Assembly: GCA_015066845.1 (NCBI GenBank)
Contig: SVNO01000021.1
Coordinates: 1-32,280, forward strand
DNA: 32,280 bases
Direction of reading: 5' to 3'
DNA from: Ruminococcus sp.
GTDB taxonomy: Bacteria > Bacillota > Clostridia > Oscillospirales > Ruminococcaceae
Positions 1 through 30,018 of this stretch are shown piece after piece. How positions within the stretch are numbered: position 1 is the first letter of the stretch; every line of letters starts with the position of its first letter. The translations under genes and the position numbers were made by a program. The notes beneath the pieces were generated by a model. The model was not told where the DNA came from and ran no database searches. It saw nothing but the letters and a program-made list of their open reading frames with translations.

Positions 1-93
1 CCGAAAAATAGCCCCTCCCCCTTTGGGGGAGGGGTTGGGGTGGGGGCAGTTACAGGGGTGCCAACCCCAGAAAAAGACTTTTTCGACAAGCTG
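1..93. repeat. Terminator-associated hairpin element, copy A (left part outside window)
   Basis: The first 93 bases are identical, base for base, to 5491-5583, the right part of complete element B. Visible modules are a ten-pair G/C hairpin with a TTT loop (12-34), a small GGGGT/ACCCC hairpin (55-68) and the right terminal repeat TTTTTCGACAAGCTG (79-93). A terminator hairpin follows directly at 94. The left end, about 70 bases plus a second copy of the 94-119 hairpin, is expected just outside the window. Non-coding. Confidence 0.85.
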
Positions 94-126
94 AGGACGG
101 CGTATTTTCGCGCCGTCCTTTGTTTT
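94..126 (+). terminator. Rho-independent terminator (right flank of element A)
   Basis: Nine-base-pair stem AGGACGGCG (94-102) / CGCCGTCCT (111-119) with an eight-base loop, followed by a T-rich run on the + strand. It would end a + strand gene lying left of the window and lies in the convergent gap with the dockerin gene. It abuts the last base of element A. Confidence 0.8.
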
Positions 127-2910: not shown

Positions 2911-3687
2911 CTACTCTATTGCCGCCTTTATCTTAGAAATCGCTCCCTTCTCCAGCCGCGATACCTGCGCCTGTGAAATTCCTATCTCTTTCGCCACTTC
3001 CACCTGCGTCCTGCCGCACAAAAAACGTAAACACAATATCGTCTTTTCCCTCTCTCCCAATGCGCGCATTGCGTCACGCATCGAAAACTGCGCGATCCAG
3101 CTTTCTGCACTGCTCTTGTCGCTGAGCTGGTCCATCACATACAGCGTGTCGCCGGCATCCGAATAGACCGGCTCATATAACGATACCGGATCGCTGATGC
3201 TTTCCAGGGCAATGACCACATCCGCGCGTTTTTCCCCGATCTCTGCCGCGATTTCATCCATGGTCGGCTCACGCTGCAATGTGTTCGTCAAACGTTCCTT
3301 TGCCTGAATCGCACGGTATGCAAGGTCGCGCAGAGAACGGCTCACCTTGATCTGACTGTAATCACGCAGATACCGCCGCAGCTCGCCGTTGATCATCGGC
3401 ACACAATAGGTCGAAAAACGTACTTCCTTGCTCAGGTCGAAATTGTTGATGGCTTTTATCAGCCCCACAACTCCAATCTGGAATAAATCATCCACATCCT
3501 CTCCACGCCCCGTGAATCGCTGAATCACCGACAGCACCAGCCGCAGATTGCCCTGTATCAGCTTGTCCCTCGCTTCCTTGCTGCCCGTTTCCTTGAACTG
3601 CCGCAGCAGTGCCATTTTCTCCTCCTCGCGCAGTACTGTCAGTTCCGCGGTGTTAATGCCGGAAATTACTACTTTATGATATGCCAT
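2911..3687 (-). CDS. sigG: Sporulation sigma factor SigG (late forespore)
   Basis: A 258-residue sigma-70 family protein. The N-terminal segment (KVVISGINTAELTVL) is the SigG-specific CsfB/SpoIIAB-responsive region found in Bacillus SigG (ICGVDTSKLPVL). Region 2 (about residues 35-105) has NLRLVLSVIQRF and DDLFQIGVVGLIKAINNFDL; region 3 follows; region 4 ends in the helix-turn-helix VAKEIGISQAQVSRLEKGAI. It directs late forespore transcription after engulfment. The start is fixed by an AAGGAG site 8 bases upstream of ATG. In Bacillus and most clostridia sigG lies just after sigE on the same strand; here it is divergent from spoIIGA, leaving a 173-base gap between the two starts. I looked for a SigF/SigG promoter in that gap and found no convincing match. 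Confidence 0.95.
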   Translation of the reverse strand: MAYHKVVISGINTAELTVLREEEKMALLRQFKETGSKEARDKLIQGNLRLVLSVIQRFTGRGEDVDDLFQIGVVGLIKAINNFDLSKEVRFSTYCVPMINGELRRYLRDYSQIKVSRSLRDLAYRAIQAKERLTNTLQREPTMDEIAAEIGEKRADVVIALESISDPVSLYEPVYSDAGDTLYVMDQLSDKSSAESWIAQFSMRDAMRALGEREKTILCLRFLCGRTQVEVAKEIGISQAQVSRLEKGAISKIKAAIE

Positions 3688-3802
3688 ACCCTGACTCCTT
3701 TCGGTGGTTTATGGGGAGTATGGGCATAGTCGGGGGAATTATTCTCTTTGCCGTATGGTGCAGGGGGAACGTGTGCGTTTTTTTATGCCGCATCCGTCCA
3801 AC

Positions 3803-3834
3803 CGACAAAATCCGCGTGGACAATGGTGTATAAT
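3803..3834 (+). promoter_or_regulatory. Probable spoIIG promoter with Spo0A-like site
   Basis: A perfect -10 TATAAT (3829-3834) lies 26 bases before the spoIIGA ATG. No TTGACA-like -35 exists at 17 bases. At the -35 position, 3803-3812 reads ATTTTGTCGG on the minus strand, close to the Spo0A box TTTGTCRAA. That resembles the known Bacillus spoIIG arrangement, where Spo0A overlaps the -35 of an atypically spaced SigA promoter. The Spo0A site is inferred from one imperfect match. Confidence 0.45.
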
Positions 3835-3860
3835 AGAAGTGGAAAGGGGGGCGGTGGTTC

Positions 3861-4667
3861 ATGCAGACGATTTATCTGGATGTGCTGCTTGTGTTCAACC
3901 TGTATGTGAATTACATACTGCTGCGGCTGACCGCAGGGCTGACCCATAGCCGGCTGCGTATGGGCAGATGTCTTGGTATGTCCGCATTGGGCAGCCTGAG
4001 TACATTGCTGATTCTTCTGCCGCCCATGCCCGTACTCCTTTCCGTTCTCTGTAAACTGCTGCTTGCCGTGCTGCTCTGTATGGGCGCGTTCGGCTGGCAT
4101 GACCGCAGGCGGCTGTTCCTTTGCACAGTCTGCCTGTTCAGCAGCAGCTTTGCAATGGCAGGAATTATGCTGGCTTTGTCCACGATGTGCAGCGTCAGAG
4201 TCGTGCATTCCAATTCCTGCTGGTATCTGGATGTATCCCTCCTGCATCTGATTTTGTTTACCATTGCCGCATATATTCTCCTGCATACTGTGCAGTATCT
4301 GCATGAACGAATGCATACAGCGGACGGGGGGTATCGGGTTTGCATCCGGTACCGCTGCTGCACAGTTCAGCTCAGGGGACTTGCGGATACGGGCAATTCC
4401 CTTGTCGATTTCTTTACCGGAAAGCCGGTCATCGTCTGTGACGCAGCCGGATTTGCAGGCATTGACACTGATGCATTCCCGCCCAAGGGCTTCCGGCTTC
4501 TGCCCATTGCCACAGTCAGCGGCAGCGGCATGATTCCGGTATTTCAGCCGGATGAGGTTGTCATCTACACCGAGCAGACGGGACGCTGCCAGCAGGTGGA
4601 TGCATTGGTAGGGCTTGGGGAACGTGGAAACGGGATGGCGATTTTCCATCCCCGTGTGTTATGTTAG
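3861..4667 (+). CDS. spoIIGA: Sporulation sigma-E processing peptidase SpoIIGA
   Basis: A 268-residue protein with five hydrophobic membrane segments in residues 1-150 (starting IYLDVLLVFNLYVNYILL) and a C-terminal aspartic-protease domain. The catalytic motif is DTG at residues 176-178 in the context LADTGNS, followed by the expected strand-rich domain ending GLGERGNGMAIFHP. SpoIIGA is a membrane protease in the septum that removes the pro-sequence of SigE in the mother cell when triggered by forespore SpoIIR. Somewhat shorter than Bacillus SpoIIGA (about 309 residues). Its stop overlaps the AGGAGG ribosome site of sigE, 9 bases upstream of the sigE ATG, so the two are co-expressed. Confidence 0.93.
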   Translation: MQTIYLDVLLVFNLYVNYILLRLTAGLTHSRLRMGRCLGMSALGSLSTLLILLPPMPVLLSVLCKLLLAVLLCMGAFGWHDRRRLFLCTVCLFSSSFAMAGIMLALSTMCSVRVVHSNSCWYLDVSLLHLILFTIAAYILLHTVQYLHERMHTADGGYRVCIRYRCCTVQLRGLADTGNSLVDFFTGKPVIVCDAAGFAGIDTDAFPPKGFRLLPIATVSGSGMIPVFQPDEVVIYTEQTGRCQQVDALVGLGERGNGMAIFHPRVLC

Positions 4668-4676
4668 GAGGATACT

Positions 4677-5369
4677 ATGTTCAAACAACTTTATCTGTGG
4701 TTCTCGCATCTGTTTCCGTCCTGTCGTGTGGATTATATCAACGGTTCGGACGCATTGCCGCCGCCGCTGACGCGTGAGGAGGAAGCGGAAGTATTCCGCC
4801 GGCTGGCGCAGGGGGATGCGGCAGCAAGGGAAGAACTGATCACGCACAATCTGCGGCTTGTGGTATATTTATCGAAGAAATTTGAAACCTCCGGCGTTGG
4901 TCTGGAGGATTTGATTTCCATAGGGACGATCGGACTGATCAAGGCGGTCAATACCTTTGTACCGGAAAAGAACATCAAGCTTGCAACCTATGCGTCACGG
5001 TGCATTGAAAATGAAATTCTCATGTTTCTGCGGAAAGCGTCGCAATATCGGGGTGAAATTTCAATTGACGAGCCATTGAACACGGACTGGGACGGCAATG
5101 AGCTGCTGCTTTCGGATATTCTGGGAACGGAGGAGGATATTGTGAACCGTGGGATTGAGTGGGAGGCAGAATGCGAGATGCTCCATGCCGCGGTACGCGC
5201 CTTACCGCCAAGGGAAAGGGAAATCATGGAGATGCGGTTTGGATTATGCGGCGGCGGTGAACGGACGCAGAAGGAGGTGGCAGAAAAAATCGGCATCTCG
5301 CAGTCGTATATTTCACGGCTGGAGAAGAAGATTATCAAGAAACTGCGGATTGTGTTGGAGAATGTATAG
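4677..5369 (+). CDS. sigE: Sporulation sigma factor SigE precursor (early mother cell)
   Basis: A 230-residue sigma-70 protein. Residues 1-20 ([12 protein letters not shown]...) form a hydrophobic/amphipathic pro-sequence, followed by [15 protein letters not shown], which matches the start of mature SigE in Bacillus. The pro-sequence is shorter than in Bacillus. Region 2 includes [14 protein letters not shown] and [32 protein letters not shown] and [19 protein letters not shown] are hallmark SigE blocks; region 4 ends [19 protein letters not shown]. It directs early mother-cell transcription after cleavage by SpoIIGA. Ribosome site AGGAGG overlaps the spoIIGA stop. Followed 20 bases later by the first hairpin copy flanking element B. 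Confidence 0.96.
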
Positions 5370-5389: not shown

Positions 5390-5420
5390 AAATTCCCTTG
5401 GCTTCACACCAAGGGAATTT
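5390..5420 (+). terminator. Left copy of the sigE terminator hairpin, without T-tract
   Basis: A 12-base-pair stem (AAATTCCCTTGG / CCAAGGGAATTT) with a 7-base loop, 31 bases in total. It is followed directly by CTGTCTGTCG, the left end of element B, so the T-tract is missing here. Identical, loop included, to 5584-5614. Confidence 0.85.
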
Positions 5421-5583
5421 CTGTCTGTCGAAAAACCTAAAATCAAACGCGGAGCGATAGCTCCGCACAAGGGGTTCGGGGACGAAGTCCCCGAAAAATA
5501 GCCCCTCCCCCTTTGGGGGAGGGGTTGGGGTGGGGGCAGTTACAGGGGTGCCAACCCCAGAAAAAGACTTTTTCGACAAGCTG
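5421..5583. repeat. Terminator-associated hairpin element, copy B (complete, 163 bp)
   Basis: A non-coding element with imperfect terminal inverted repeats CTGTCTGTCGAAAAA (5421-5435) and TTTTTCGACAAGCTG (5569-5583); 12 of the 15 positions pair, plus one G-T wobble. The interior is a series of hairpins: GCGGAGC/GCTCCGC with loop GATA (5449-5466), TTCGGGGAC/GTCCCCGAA with loop GAA (5475-5495), a 10-pair C/G stem with loop TTT (5502-5524), and GGGGT/ACCCC (5545-5558). It is flanked by perfect 31-bp direct repeats that are the local terminator hairpin. Its last 93 bases equal 1-93, and copy C differs at only a few positions. Confidence 0.85.
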
Positions 5584-5619
5584 AAATTCCCTTGGCTTCA
5601 CACCAAGGGAATTTTTGCA
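5584..5619 (+). terminator. Right copy of the sigE terminator, with T-tract
   Basis: Second copy of the 31-base hairpin (5584-5614), running into a TTTTT tract. It is the functional-looking terminator for sigE, and the stem may also stop the convergent LRR operon that ends at 5624. Confidence 0.85.
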
Positions 5620-5623
5620 GGAA

Positions 5624-7168
5624 TTATTCATCATCCTCACTTGCGTCAGGCGTTTCCTCGCTGACCTGTTCATAATCTGTATTGTCCTCCTCCTGCGGTT
5701 CTATTCCCATAGAATCGAGGATGTTGACATATACCTTGTCCTCTTCCTGAAGCTCCGCTTCTTCCTGTGCAGCTTTCTGTTCCTGCTGCTCCTCGCGGCT
5801 GAGCTGATTCTTGCGGATAACGCGTACCAGCAGGAATATCACCACCGCCAGTACTGCCGCTGCGCCGACAATGACTGCAATCGCCATCGGAGAAAGTCCC
5901 TTGCCGCCGTGCAGCTTGAAGCCCTCGATTTTCACCGGAATCGGTCTGTCCTGCTCGTCAAGCTCCGTGCCGTCCGTGTAGCCGAATGCATAATCACCCA
6001 GCATATTCTTGTCCATGTGCGCCGGAAGTGTCACGCTCAGCAGCTTCGGACATGCATAGAATGCATACTGCCCGATTTTTGTCAGGCTGTCAGGTAAGCT
6101 GACCTGCGAGAGATTGATGCAGTCTGCAAATGCATTTTCCGCAATCGACTGCAAGCCCATGGGCAATGTGATTTGTGTCAGGGATTCGCAGTATTCAAAT
6201 GCAGCCGGTCCGATGGATTTGAGCGTGGACGGGAATTCCACCGATTTGAGCTGATAGGATGCGAAGAATGCACCCTCCTGCACCATGGTCACACCCTCCG
6301 GAATGGTAAAGCTCTCACTTTCCTTTCCGGCAGGATACGCATAGAGAATCTGCATGTCCTTGTCATACAGAACACCGTCCTCCACGCGATAGCTTTCGTT
6401 GCCCTCCTCCACATGGTAGGCGGTAAAACTCGAACAGCCCATGAACGGCATATAGCCCATGTGCTCCATCTCCTTGGGAATCGTGAATTCTTTGATATTC
6501 ACGCAGCCGTAATACGCGCCCGTGCCCAGTGTGGTGACGGATTCCGGAAGCTTGACTTCCTCAATGGACGGACAGAATGCAAAGGCATAATCGCCGAGTG
6601 TTGTCAGTGTTTCGGGAAGCTCCGGTGTCGGCAGCAGCTCGCAGTTGTAGAATGCAGTTGTGCCGATACTTGTCAGATCCGGCGGAAAATCGACATTCTG
6701 CAAGTACTTGCAGTCATAGAACATACCGTCCGGAATCTCCGTCATGCTGTCGGGGAGATTGATGGTATCCAGTGAAGTACAGCCTAAAAATGCGTAATCT
6801 CCGATATTTTCAATCGTTTCCGGCAGACTCACATTGATGAGGGAAACGCAGTCGGCAAATGCATAATCGCCGATGCTCTTGACATGTGCGCCAAGCTCCA
6901 CCTTTTTCAGATTGGCGCAGCCATAGAATGCGCCCTCTGCAATGGAAACGATTTTGTAGCCGTCCGTCATATCCGGCAGGGAAACTGCCAGTGCCGAGGT
7001 ATCGCAGCCGTACAGCTCTACACCGCCGTCCACATAGGCAAATGTGAACATGCCGTCCTCATAGGTATCCGGCTGGGATTGCGTGGGTTCTTCTGCGCCA
7101 GCCGGCAGCGCGGTCATAGTGCACAGTCCGGCAAGAAAGGCTGTCAGTATCTTTTTCATCTGAAGCAT
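5624..7168 (-). CDS. BspA-like leucine-rich-repeat membrane protein 5 (acidic cytoplasmic tail)
   Basis: A 514-residue protein, start chosen at MLQMKKILTAF because AAGGAC lies 8 bases upstream; an in-frame extension to 7309 would overlap the preceding gene. Residues 1-24 form a signal peptide. About residues 60-410 hold LRR_5 (BspA-type) repeats of about 23 residues with the pattern LPxSLTxIGxYAFxxC. They are interrupted by the BspA-type insert YRVEDGVLYDKDMQILYAYP. A membrane helix near residue 430 (PMAIAVIVGAAAVLAVVIFL) is followed by a basic stop and a cytoplasmic tail of about 70 residues rich in Glu/Gln/Asp. LRR_5 domains generally bind proteins or host and matrix ligands; ligand unknown. 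Last gene of the five-gene LRR run and the only one with a long acidic tail. Confidence 0.88.
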   Translation of the reverse strand: MLQMKKILTAFLAGLCTMTALPAGAEEPTQSQPDTYEDGMFTFAYVDGGVELYGCDTSALAVSLPDMTDGYKIVSIAEGAFYGCANLKKVELGAHVKSIGDYAFADCVSLINVSLPETIENIGDYAFLGCTSLDTINLPDSMTEIPDGMFYDCKYLQNVDFPPDLTSIGTTAFYNCELLPTPELPETLTTLGDYAFAFCPSIEEVKLPESVTTLGTGAYYGCVNIKEFTIPKEMEHMGYMPFMGCSSFTAYHVEEGNESYRVEDGVLYDKDMQILYAYPAGKESESFTIPEGVTMVQEGAFFASYQLKSVEFPSTLKSIGPAAFEYCESLTQITLPMGLQSIAENAFADCINLSQVSLPDSLTKIGQYAFYACPKLLSVTLPAHMDKNMLGDYAFGYTDGTELDEQDRPIPVKIEGFKLHGGKGLSPMAIAVIVGAAAVLAVVIFLLVRVIRKNQLSREEQQEQKAAQEEAELQEEDKVYVNILDSMGIEPQEEDNTDYEQVSEETPDASEDDE

Positions 7169-7197
7169 AAAACTTCGTCCTTTCTGGAAATTTTCAG

Positions 7198-8364
7198 TTA
7201 TCTGCGCTTTTTCAGCACAACAGCAATGGCGATGGACAAACCGAGAATGGCAGCAACCGCCGCACCAATGAGCAGATAATAGGTCAGATTGGGATAGTAC
7301 AGCTTCCATGCAATGTCATTGCTTGACGCAAATCTGTATGCCGGTGAAGCTCTTGTGACAAGTGCCGTGAAATTTTCCTGCACCACATTGCCCTGCGCTG
7401 CCTCGTCATAACAGTAGCCGATGCAGCAGCTTGTCATGGTGACGACCGAAGGGGGAATGGTCAGGGATTCGAGGGAAATGCAGTGGAAAAATGCGTAAGG
7501 GCTGATGGCTTCCAGTCCCTCTGGCAGTGCAATGTCCGTCAGGGATGTGCAGGAGAAAAAGCAGTTTTCCCCGATGCTGCGCAGCGTTGAGGGAAGTGTC
7601 ACGCTCTGCAAGCCTGCACAATAGCAGAATGTACCGTCCGCAAGTGCTGTAATTCCTTCCGGAACGGTGATATGCTTCAGCCCGACACAGTAATAGAATG
7701 CGTCCTCACCAATGGAAGTTACACTGCCAAGGTCAATTTCCTCCAAATACTGTGCGCCGATAAATGACCAGTTTGCGATAGTTTTGCATTCCTGCGGTAC
7801 AGTGTATGCAGTATCCGGACGGGATTCCGGATATTTCAGGAGCGTTGCCATGTCCTTGGTGAACAGTACGCCATCCTGCGATGCGTAGGCAGTATTTTCC
7901 GCAGCAACGGTGATTTCCGTCATCAGCTCGCAGTTGTCGAACACATAATCGCCAATCTGCGTCACGCTTGCCGGAATGGTAAACTCCGTCAGAGCCGTGC
8001 ATCCGCTGAATGCGATTGCGTCAATGGTCGTCACGCTCTCCGGAATGGTCACGCTTTCCAGTGCAGTGCAGCCAAAAAAGGCGGATTCGCCGATGGTGGT
8101 CAGGCTGTCCGGCATTGTAACTGCGGTCAGGTCTGTAAATTCCGCAAAGCAGCCCTCTGCCAGTGCAGTGACTGGATAGCCGTTGAGCGTGGCAGGAATT
8201 TCGACCGTCTGGAGGGTTTTGTTGATGCAGGTAATCTGCGCCGTGCCATCCTCCAGAAGCGTCATGGAAAAATCCTCATCCGCCGCCGCTGCCGGCAATG
8301 CCGGAAGTGCCGCGGTCAGCGTCCATGCCGCAAGCAGCATGGCTGAAAGTCGTTTCAGATGCAT
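7198..8364 (-). CDS. BspA-like leucine-rich-repeat membrane protein 4
   Basis: A 388-residue protein. Signal peptide 1-27 ending PAAAA. A short strand-rich region (EDGTAQITCINKTLQTVEIP) leads into about ten LRR_5 repeats (for example LTTIGESAFFGCTALESVTI), with the insert YASQDGVLFTKDMATLLKYP in the middle. A cap region ending YRFASSNDIAWKLYYP precedes one membrane helix (YYLLIGAAVAAILGLSIAIA) and the short basic tail VVLKKRR. Predicted topology: repeats outside, tail inside. Lies 15 bases downstream of protein 3 and 29 bases upstream of protein 5, consistent with one transcript. Ligand and function unknown. Confidence 0.88.
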   Translation of the reverse strand: MHLKRLSAMLLAAWTLTAALPALPAAAADEDFSMTLLEDGTAQITCINKTLQTVEIPATLNGYPVTALAEGCFAEFTDLTAVTMPDSLTTIGESAFFGCTALESVTIPESVTTIDAIAFSGCTALTEFTIPASVTQIGDYVFDNCELMTEITVAAENTAYASQDGVLFTKDMATLLKYPESRPDTAYTVPQECKTIANWSFIGAQYLEEIDLGSVTSIGEDAFYYCVGLKHITVPEGITALADGTFCYCAGLQSVTLPSTLRSIGENCFFSCTSLTDIALPEGLEAISPYAFFHCISLESLTIPPSVVTMTSCCIGYCYDEAAQGNVVQENFTALVTRASPAYRFASSNDIAWKLYYPNLTYYLLIGAAVAAILGLSIAIAVVLKKRR

Positions 8365-25574: not shown

Positions 25575-25850
25575 ATGGCAGGGTTTGGAAAAACTGGTCA
25601 GAATCTCAAGGACTTCGGCGAACGGCAGAATGCGATGAATGCACAGCTGACGGAAAAGCTGGAGCTTTTGACGCATCAGCTCGGACAAGCTCTCGACACG
25701 ATTGCCGGACTGGAGCTGGAGCAGCGCAGGAATTTGCAGCGATTTGCGGCATATGAAGCGGAAATTGCGGATCTACACAAGGAACTTGACCGCCTGCGCC
25801 TGACCGTGAAGCTCAATTCCAACACCATCGACCGGCTTGCAAAGCAATAA
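25575..25850 (+). CDS. Small coiled-coil protein at the end of the glycan operon
   Basis: A 91-residue protein, soluble and almost wholly helical, with heptad spacing of Leu/Ile from about residue 22 to the end (LTEKLELLTHQLGQALDTIA ... ELDRLRLTVKLNSNTIDRLA). I do not recognise it. The ATG lacks a good ribosome site, but GAGGGGG overlaps the region after the rmd stop and sits 9 bases before an in-frame CTG at 25551. The true start could therefore be upstream, adding LNRNTYQD. Coding is supported by its place in the operon and the amphipathic pattern. It may scaffold the glycosyltransferases; that is speculation. Confidence 0.6.
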   Translation: MAGFGKTGQNLKDFGERQNAMNAQLTEKLELLTHQLGQALDTIAGLELEQRRNLQRFAAYEAEIADLHKELDRLRLTVKLNSNTIDRLAKQ

Positions 25851-25889: not shown

Positions 25890-25915
25890 GATCCCATGGA
25901 GAAATCCATGGGATT
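25890..25915 (+). terminator. Left copy of the glycan-operon terminator hairpin, without T-tract
   Basis: A 26-base hairpin: ten-pair stem ATCCCATGGA / TCCATGGGAT plus a G-T pair, loop GAAA. Followed by CAGTCTGTC, the left end of element C. Identical to 26078-26103. Confidence 0.85.
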
Positions 25916-26077
25916 CAGTCTGTCAAAAAACCTAAAATCAAACGCGGAGCGATAGCTCCGCACAAGGGGTTCGGGGACGAAGTCCCCGAAATATAGCCCC
26001 TCCCCCGTTGGGGGAGGGGTTGGGGTGGGGGCAGCTTTGGGGTGCTAACCCCAGAAAAAGACTTTTTTGACAAGCTG
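25916..26077. repeat. Terminator-associated hairpin element, copy C (complete, 162 bp)
   Basis: Close relative of element B with the same ends and the same hairpin order. Differences include the left repeat CAGTCTGTCAAAAAA and right repeat TTTTTTGACAAGCTG: relative to B, one G-C pair has become A-T on both sides, and the second position now pairs. The interior loop of the C/G stem is GTT instead of TTT. Flanked by perfect 26-bp direct repeats equal to the local terminator hairpin. The gap 25851-26256 holds this element, its two hairpins and the metG promoter. Confidence 0.85.
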
Positions 26078-26107
26078 GATCCCATGGAGAAATCCATGGG
26101 ATTTTTG
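26078..26107 (+). terminator. Right copy of the glycan-operon terminator, with T-tract
   Basis: Second copy of the 26-base hairpin, running into TTTTTG. The functional-looking terminator before metG. Confidence 0.85.
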
Positions 26108-28238: not shown

Positions 28239-28267
28239 AAACCCGTGAAGGCTCTCTTCACGGGTTT
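28239..28267 (+). terminator. Left copy of the metG terminator hairpin, without T-tract
   Basis: A 29-base hairpin: 12-pair stem AAACCCGTGAAG / CTTCACGGGTTT, loop GCTCT. Followed by CTGTCTGTCG, the left end of element D. The stem is identical to the right copy (29985-30013), but the loop differs there (AATCA). Confidence 0.85.
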
Positions 28268-28499
28268 CTGTCTGTCGAAAAACTATCCTCTTATGCCGGA
28301 GGCAATGGAAAAGTTTTTGGTCGAGCTTTTTTCAAAAAGCTCGTGGGTGTCCAGAGGGCAACGCCCTCTGGTCGCGCACCGCAGTGCGCGAAATCTCTTT
28401 AAGCCGTCGCTTTTTTCAGGGGTGAATCAAAAAAATAGTCCTGTGGACTGTTTTGAACCGACCCCAAAAAGTTAGACAAAAAATTTTAAACAAACCCAT

Positions 28500-28534
28500 G
28501 CAAAGTGACCAAGCGACAAGCTTGGTCGCTTTGC
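28500..28534 (-). terminator. Hairpin downstream of the transposase gene
   Basis: Fifteen-pair stem (one G-T) GCAAAGTGACCAAGC / GCTTGGTCGCTTTGC with loop GACAA, between the OrfB stop and the IS end. On the minus strand a T-rich region follows at a distance of several bases. Confidence 0.6.
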
Positions 28535-28535
28535 A

Positions 28536-29375
28536 TTAGGCGGCAGACTCACGATACTGAACAGGCGACATGCCGTTCAGCCGCAGTTTGATCCGCTCGT
28601 TGTTGTACCACTCAATGTATTCCTCAAGCTCCGCAATGAAATGCTCAACAGAGGAAAACTCCTGTAAATAGAGCAATTCTGTTTTTAGCAAAGAGAAGAA
28701 ATTCTCTGCACAGGCGTTATCCAAACAATTTCCCTTACGGGACATGCTCTGACGAATGCCCTTTTCTTTCAGCATTTTCCGATAACGCTTATGTTGATAC
28801 TGCCAGCCCTGATCCGAGTGCAGGATCAGATTCGTTCCATTAGGAATCTTGGCAAACGCCTTTTCCAGCATGTCTGTTATCTGCATAAGATTGACATGAT
28901 AGCTCAGGTTATAAGACACGACTTCACCGTTGAAAAGATCAATAATTGGTGATAAATAGAGCTTTACGCCAAATAACGAAAACTCTGTTACGTCCGTCGC
29001 CCACTTCTGGTTCGGCTTGTCTGCCTTGAAATCACGTTCCAGCAGATTGGGAGCGATCTTTCCAACCTCTCCCTTATAGGAGTTATATTTCCGCATACGA
29101 ACCTTGCAGAATATGCCCATCTTTCGCATTAAACGCTGTACTGTCTTGTGATTGACATAGTAAGGTGTGCCACGTAGCTTTTCCGTGATGCGGCGATATC
29201 CGTAACGTCCCTTACTCTCATCGTAGATTCGGCGGATTTCTGTTTCTACTTCGGCATATTTGTTAGGCTTATCTGCTTTAAACTGCTTGCTGTAATAGTA
29301 GTAAGTGCTGCGAGGAATTCCGGCAATATCAATGAGCAGCACCAGCTTATGTTCATGCCTCAGCTCCCAGATCAC
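28536..29375 (-). CDS. IS3-family transposase OrfB (DDE integrase domain)
   Basis: A 279-residue protein. N-terminal HTH_21-like region (IPRSTYYYYSKQF; GRYGYRRITEKLR) and a retroviral-type integrase core. The catalytic triad looks intact: Asp in KWATDVTEFSLFG, Asp in LILHSDQGWQYQHKRY, Glu in NACAENFFSLLKTE, with the C-terminal YIEWYNNERIKLRLNGMSPV block. It begins at GTG overlapping the OrfA stop (GTGA). An A5G run (29381-29386, minus strand) just before allows a -1 frameshift to give the usual OrfAB fusion transposase. It cuts and joins IS ends, usually via a circular intermediate. Confidence 0.92.
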   Translation of the reverse strand: MIWELRHEHKLVLLIDIAGIPRSTYYYYSKQFKADKPNKYAEVETEIRRIYDESKGRYGYRRITEKLRGTPYYVNHKTVQRLMRKMGIFCKVRMRKYNSYKGEVGKIAPNLLERDFKADKPNQKWATDVTEFSLFGVKLYLSPIIDLFNGEVVSYNLSYHVNLMQITDMLEKAFAKIPNGTNLILHSDQGWQYQHKRYRKMLKEKGIRQSMSRKGNCLDNACAENFFSLLKTELLYLQEFSSVEHFIAELEEYIEWYNNERIKLRLNGMSPVQYRESAA

Positions 29376-29719
29376 TTGTGCTTTTTCTCTTGCCGTACCC
29401 TCTCGGCAACCAAGGCATTCAATTTTTTTAGGTATGCATTCTCCGCACGAAGCCGCTGTACTTCGGCAATTAAGTCCTCTTTTACGTCCTTTTTGGGCTT
29501 CTGCGATTTCCCTGTTGATTTTCGCCCACGTCGTTCAATCCGCAATCCTTCTGCTCCTTCTTCGATGTAGATGCGTTCCCATCTGGCTACAACATGATGC
29601 TCACTTACATCAAATTGACGGGCTGCTTCATGATAGCTCAACTTCTCTCTTCTCATTGTTTCTACTACCATGATTTTGAACTCTGGTGTATACCGCTTGT
29701 TTGGTACTCCTTTTGGCAT
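29372..29719 (-). CDS. IS3-family transposase OrfA (helix-turn-helix)
   Basis: A 115-residue protein. Residues about 8-60 form the HTH DNA-binding domain (RYTPEFKIMVVETM; LSYHEAARQFDVSEHHVVAR). A basic linker and a leucine zipper follow (DLIAEVQRLRAENAYLKKLN, residues about 81-100), used for multimerisation in IS3 elements. It binds the IS ends and regulates transposition, alone or as the N-terminal part of the OrfAB fusion. Its stop overlaps the OrfB start. Confidence 0.9.
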   Translation of the reverse strand: MPKGVPNKRYTPEFKIMVVETMRREKLSYHEAARQFDVSEHHVVARWERIYIEEGAEGLRIERRGRKSTGKSQKPKKDVKEDLIAEVQRLRAENAYLKKLNALVAERVRQEKKHK

Positions 29720-29984
29720 TTAAATGCCCCCTTTCGTTAGACTTGGTTTGGGGTATATCTTTATTATACCACATTGTCTAACAAAAGGGGAGCATTTCAT
29801 TTTTTTGAGAGGGGGAGTTTTTTGCAAAAAACTCCCCCTACCCGTTCTCTTAGTATGCCTTTCCTTTGTGCCCTTGGGCACAAACACGCGCTGCCGCTTG
29901 CGCGAAGCGCAAAGGCAGCAAATCACCAGCGCGGGTTCCACGCCTTTGTGCCCTTGGGCACAAAAAGACTTTTTTGACAAGCTG

Positions 29985-30018
29985 AAACCCGTGAAGAATC
30001 ACTTCACGGGTTTTTTGT
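29985..30018 (+). terminator. Right copy of the metG terminator, with T-tract
   Basis: A 12-pair stem identical to the left copy, loop AATCA, followed by a six-T run. The hairpin with its T-tract is now about 1.8 kb from the metG stop. Confidence 0.85.

Follow-up and report, generated by a model that had tools for sequence, protein, structure and literature searches.

Hairpins and inserted elements in the window

The window, i.e., the whole stretch of 32,280 nucleotides that was analysed, belongs to a draft Ruminococcus genome (G000) which is 93% complete and comprises 106 contigs (2.21 Mb). Sporulation genes occupy positions 2911-5369 (spoIIGA, sigE and, on the opposite strand, sigG; assignments by NCBIfam, the SpoIIGA match being under its cut-off). 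The gene at 4677-5369 on the forward strand encodes the sporulation sigma factor SigE (NF006158, 349.4 bits for a cut-off of 339; 337 bits with TIGR02835, under the cut-off of 348.6). Its terminator hairpin, AAATTCCCTTGGCTTCACACCAAGGGAATTT, is present twice, at 5390-5420 and 5584-5614, as identical 31-bp copies with a 12-bp stem and a 7-base loop. Exactly 163 bp of non-coding DNA (5421-5583, forward strand; element B) lie between the two copies, and further T's are found only beyond the right one, none beyond the left one, just as described in the initial annotation. The 163-bp element is bounded by terminal inverted repeats, the left one CTGTCTGTCGAAAAA (5421-5435, forward strand; the common form starts with CAG) and the right one CAGCTTGTCGAAAAA, read inward (5569-5583, reverse strand). 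The element taken with its hairpins has a fold far more stable than its shuffles (z = -10.2). An Rfam search of the window at gathering thresholds gave no match. The gene adjoining the element on the other side (5624-7309, reverse strand) encodes a protein with BspA-type leucine-rich repeats.

The same layout had been said to recur at two further sites. This is exact for the first of them, where 26-bp hairpin copies (25890-25915 and 26078-26103, the right one followed by T's) enclose a 162-bp element (25916-26077, forward strand) which shares with the 163-bp element an interior called family A. At the metG terminator the recurrence is imperfect: the 29-bp copies (28239-28267 and 29985-30013, the latter followed by T's) match at 26/29 positions, all three mismatches falling in the loop. 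The element between them (28268-29984, forward strand; family B) has the same ends, an interior unlike that of the first two, and is split by an insertion sequence of the IS3 family (28454-29799, reverse strand), which we take to be IS150-like and whose limits were set by eye against an uninterrupted family-B copy on contig C69. The nested insertion sequence has open reading frames at 28536-29375 and 29372-29719; the former, on the reverse strand, encodes an IS3-family transposase (NF033516, 335.5 bits for a cut-off of 160). It was rejected as a partner of the surrounding element, which it interrupts. A fourth copy is truncated by the window start (1-119, forward strand): the right part of the element (1-93) is followed by its own right hairpin (94-119), and the left side lies beyond the window.

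The search of the genome with the 163-bp element, proposed in the initial annotation, gave at least 40 blastn matches in G000 (of 184 candidates 40 were scored, all of them matching), with identities of 88-100%. The right-end motif has 105 matches in G000 with up to two mismatches, versus 2 for a reversed-pattern control. With up to one mismatch it is found in 17 of 25 Ruminococcus genomes, including that of the window, with up to 76 matches per genome. Outside the family, 3 of 16 genomes from other families of the order have one match each; the reversed motif gives single hits in 5 of 41 genomes, so that single hits carry no meaning. Several G000 contigs terminate within a copy of the element. 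A 34-bp relic (L045, C38:10427-10460) consists of the two element ends alone, without hairpin duplication. The elements are thus short, multi-copy, bordered by terminal inverted repeats and target duplications, and too small to encode a transposase, i.e., they have the features of MITEs.

Direct repeats and dyad symmetry

Facing pairs of ends (up to 2 mismatches per end, 30-2500 bp apart) were collected from fetched stretches of G000 and of two other genomes (G008, the closest by sequence, and G003), giving 94 pairs. Ungapped direct repeats lie next to the ends in 68 of them (11-36 bp, median 26; 38 of 68 perfect), so the opposite outcome, in which most copies would lack the duplication, was not observed. 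In most of the analysed copies the element is enclosed by two full hairpins; T's usually come after the right one and A's ahead of the left one (on average 4.4 T's among the 8 bases after the right copy and 4.3 A's among the 8 that precede the left copy).

The empty target of each MITE site was modelled by joining the flanks, and the best palindrome was then sought. The duplication is centred on the dyad within half a base at 61 of 68 sites, versus 9.1% of shuffled sites, and chance is therefore excluded as the source of the hairpin duplications. A stem score of at least 7 with a centre shift of at most 1 base is found at 60 of 68 sites (2.4% for shuffled ones). The correlation between duplication length and the span to the outermost G-C pair is only moderate: r = 0.57 (62 of the 68 sites), rising to 0.85 after removal of outliers (55 sites). 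For the autonomous insertion sequences described below it is 0.58 (27 of 31 sites), a value of 0.85 or above being reached only without outliers (0.91, 24 sites). Dyad symmetry is thus the firm result, and the idea put forward initially, that duplication length follows hairpin length, holds moderately. It was also considered that the hairpin copy devoid of T's could decay faster; this is unsupported, since among 30 imperfect pairs the left copy has more broken pairs in 6, the right copy in 11, and both are equal in 13.

The remaining 26 of the 94 pairs have no clean duplication. In some of them the repeats are decayed or contain gaps, in several the hairpins on the two sides are not the same, and a few pairs probably consist of chance ends. 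Among the 68 pairs with repeats, one (L306) has an 11-bp duplication and no clear hairpin. Copies placed between two different hairpins are seen in G000 at C6:16160-16381, C13:2818, C77:3253, C21:144 and C44:8193, and at L296:1040. Different hairpins at the two ends could result from mis-joining at repeats, from recombination between copies or from intramolecular transposition.

IS1182-type ends, autonomous relatives and empty sites

Insertion sequences (IS) with ends of the same type were found within the genus. IS left ends read CAGnCTGTCgAAAAAGtC (68 ends) and IS right ends CAGnCTGTCnAaaAAcCC (61 ends). The two ends can be told apart: one continues as ...AAAAAGTC and the other as ...AAACCC. 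Among the IS, AGTC is present in 38 of 68 left ends and ACCC, at the same positions, in 31 of 61 right ends. The MITEs carry one end of each IS type, i.e., the GTC-type and the other, in 84 of 94 cases; for the 163-bp element, the left end matches the IS right-end type and the right end the IS left-end (GTC) type. Pfam DDE_Tnp_1_6 is detected in 11 of the 38 genomes of the genus that were searched (9 over the cut-off), G000 not being among them, and at least several of these loci share the MITE-type ends. One IS of about 1.5 kb (L105, in G011), with a transposase in two overlapping frames, has a perfect 31-bp palindrome on each side; another (L108 = L153, in G021) measures 1473 bp and stands between perfect 33-bp copies. 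With the NCBIfam model of the IS1182 family transposase (NF033551, cut-off 270), L108 scores 357 bits and L104, from G008, 272 bits; the two frames of L105, taken singly, score 201 and 184 bits, both below the cut-off.

The IS1182 transposases above the cut-off are thus located in Ruminococcus genomes other than that of the window. Searches with PF13751 and with protein sequences found none in G000 (106-contig draft, 93% complete), and a putative autonomous element at the end of contig C53 was rejected, as it proved to be the end of a host gene adjoining an element end. Since no transposase was found in this draft, the G000 elements are either orphans or have a partner that was not assembled. 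As judged from the sequence of its ends, which are different from one another and match both ends of in-genus IS1182-family IS, the element is a non-autonomous relative (MITE) of the IS1182-family insertion sequences. That this family assignment and the hairpin duplication are both correct is almost certain.

The search for autonomous relatives was widened by scanning named genomes once for matches to the transposase of G021; of the 94 relatives obtained, 80 confirmed loci were kept. A repeat of at least 16 bp lies next to the IS in 33 loci, contig ends truncate 21, and in 26 the flanks are present but show no such repeat, i.e., 59 loci could be assessed. The 33 repeats represent 31 distinct sequences (17-39 bp), of which 24 are dyad-centred within half a base (8.3% for shuffled sites). 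The 33 loci include 11/11 full-length copies of Chakrabartyella piscis, the one complete genome in which copies were counted; their direct repeats measure 17-31 bp, two copies sharing one repeat. All three fetched copies of Clostridium neonatale have a repeat as well. Such repeats were also found in Ruminococcus, Gemmiger, Anaeromassilibacillus and Christensenellaceae assemblies.

Of the 26 assessable loci devoid of such a repeat (16 bp or longer), 17 could be examined at both ends, and in 11 of these a hairpin abuts each end and the two hairpins differ (score of at least 7, a threshold reached by 6.5% of shuffled flanks, the best end being taken where several were possible). These 11 loci (L178, L191, L192, L194, L198, L202, L204, L205, L208, L218 and L220) are all, according to their titles, in draft or metagenome assemblies.

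Two empty sites could be compared with their filled counterparts. In an Enterococcus faecium plasmid, ISEfa7 (annotated as IS1182-like) lies between two copies of a 23-bp palindrome. A single copy of this palindrome is present in 6/6 fetched IS-free plasmid records of the same species (98 records match the right flank), where it sits between six A's and six T's, and the compared flanks (45 and 37 bases) are identical. This filled locus is one of three that were examined for ISEfa7; the other two (same neighbours, with an IS256 against the left side) lack any repeat of at least 12 bp within the ranges searched. In five further records, the neighbours of the match are an ABC-transporter permease and a fragment annotated as transposase.

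The second case is within the genus of the window. A single 31-bp palindrome stands in G015 at the place that is taken, in G011, by an IS with a palindrome on either side. The left flanks are 92% identical over 448 bp and the right ones 95.5% over 111 bp and divergent beyond, so that this empty site, which belongs to another species, is matched on its right side over only 111 bp. At both loci, then, the element-free site has one hairpin and the filled site two. This agrees with the insertion and whole-hairpin target duplication suggested initially, as do the repeats of the 68 MITE pairs; the reverse situation, element-free loci still carrying two hairpins, was not encountered. Nor was deletion of the hairpin without duplication, as for IS1272.

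Orthologous loci were also inspected. In G008, inspection by eye showed no element behind the orthologues of metG, of sigE and of the gene at 25575-25850: those of metG and of the 25575-25850 gene are directly followed by one hairpin with T's, of a different sequence, and the sigE orthologue by a G+C-rich hairpin of its own. A usable empty site for the 1473-bp IS of G021 was sought and none was found. It must be noted that the sigE terminator is occupied elsewhere by other elements of this type: in G009 (L269) with the whole hairpin on both sides, about 42 bp by eye, and in G021 (L291), where the contig ends inside the element.

Proposed mechanism and comparison with known systems

The reading that we favour, with a probability of roughly 0.85, is that element B is a MITE which a DDE transposase of the IS1182 family would mobilise in trans, the whole hairpin being copied at the target. 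MITEs and autonomous copies alike are placed at the foot of hairpins that resemble terminators. The target duplications made by DDE transposases are normally of one fixed length or vary within narrow limits. Here this length appears to be set by the fold of the target, which is rebuilt. The following steps may be proposed. The transposase would recognise the target hairpin in its extruded form, as a cruciform or stem-loop. The element would then be joined through its two 3'-OH ends, one per target strand, at the 5' foot of the hairpin, as expected for a DDE transposase, which links two 3' ends to 5' phosphates of opposite target strands. Filling of both gaps would leave the whole hairpin on either side, and the duplication length would be set by the target structure, not by a fixed enzyme spacing. 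The cruciform-foot step, for which symmetry about the dyad speaks more strongly than duplication length, is probable, with less assurance than the reading as a whole.

The alternative which survives best is that the transposase reads a linear symmetric sequence, either an A-tract on one side with a T-tract on the other or the palindrome in duplex form, and makes its cuts beside the tracts, with no cruciform; duplication and hairpin would then be equal only because of how terminators are built. A and T are strongly enriched at the boundaries of the autonomous IS (A in 0.81 of sites just outside the left edge, T in 0.94 and 0.90 across the right edge), so linear sequence may contribute. The MITE sites fit this less well, as A occupies the position immediately outside the left edge in only 0.53 of them, yet the dyad is centred in 61 of 68, and some sites are almost without an A-tract. 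Moreover, the relative IS1272 targets hairpins without sequence conservation, according to the available text of Furi 2016 (PMC4923244) and Wan 2017 (PMC5678879). A linear reading is thus rather unlikely, although it deserves more weight than the two explanations below.

The two hairpins could also come from a local tandem duplication or recombination, the element merely lying between them. Copies with a different hairpin on each side indicate that recombination or mis-joining may occur, but the single hairpin of the two empty sites, within the same or closely similar flanks, refutes this origin at these two loci, and 99 analysed sites (68 of MITEs, 31 of IS) each have their own local repeats; it is very improbable as a general explanation. 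Slighter still is the chance that the mobile unit includes the hairpin and carries it along: most copies do carry hairpins at their ends, but the hairpin sequence varies by locus while the listed element matches are 88-100% identical, and the presence of the hairpin already in the two empty sites refutes it.

Returning to transposition with whole-hairpin duplication, an intact hairpin with its tract would be kept for each direction of transcription, and the insertion would be nearly harmless; this would explain about 100 copies in 2.2 Mb. The stop signal of the gene probably survives the insertion, and the element would become a 3' untranslated segment. On a broader scale, it is somewhat likelier than its contrary that a widespread clade of IS1182-type transposases and MITEs reads DNA secondary structure, that this structure sets the duplication length, and that a complete terminator is regenerated at each insertion, so that an element could colonise the terminators of a genome at little cost. 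If so, the sites would be evidence for hairpin extrusion in living cells and would give a simple reason for the tolerance of insertions in terminators. Doubled terminators in Clostridia may mark old insertions. The contrast between duplication and deletion of the hairpin (the latter in IS1272) within one family would also be of use for finding the residues that decide between them.

Direct repeats of 0-60 bp are recorded in ISfinder for the IS1182 family. The window elements share with this family, including ISEfa7, the same kind of ends and a palindromic target, and differ from it by having no transposase. The initial remark that no described mobile element with this behaviour was known needs correcting as far as the kind of element goes: the elements are relatives of a family for which palindromic targets have been reported (Siguier 2015, cited in the consulted parts of PMC4923244 and PMC5678879), and a pathway with the same outcome was drawn, as a hypothesis, in 2017 (PMC5678879). 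Other short, non-coding, structured, many-copy intergenic elements are known, i.e., BOX, RUP and SPRITE; the available parts of a review (PMC10969869) describe for them no duplication set by a terminator hairpin, unlike what is seen for element B. In the literature searched, as far as its text was accessible, no publication demonstrating systematic duplication of a whole hairpin was found. The family is thus known, and the novelty, within these sources, would lie in the target outcome.

The closest comparison is with IS1272 and TnSha1 of staphylococci, members of the IS1182 family that target hairpins, some of them confirmed terminators, and require no conserved sequence at the target (accessible parts of PMC4923244 and PMC5678879). 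Furi 2016 reports hairpin targeting with partial deletion by both (PMC4923244, same parts). IS1272 thus deletes or replaces the hairpin without duplication, whereas the window elements keep and copy it. In the sections available of Wan 2017 (PMC5678879), the pathway favoured for IS1272 is an attack at the 3' feet, by which the hairpin is lost. Pathway b of Figure 13 in the same paper, a hypothetical one, is an attack at the 5' feet of the cruciform, which duplicates the whole stem-loop; it is drawn without examples in the Discussion text. Its predicted outcome is the one observed here, and the elements described above look like natural instances of this pathway.
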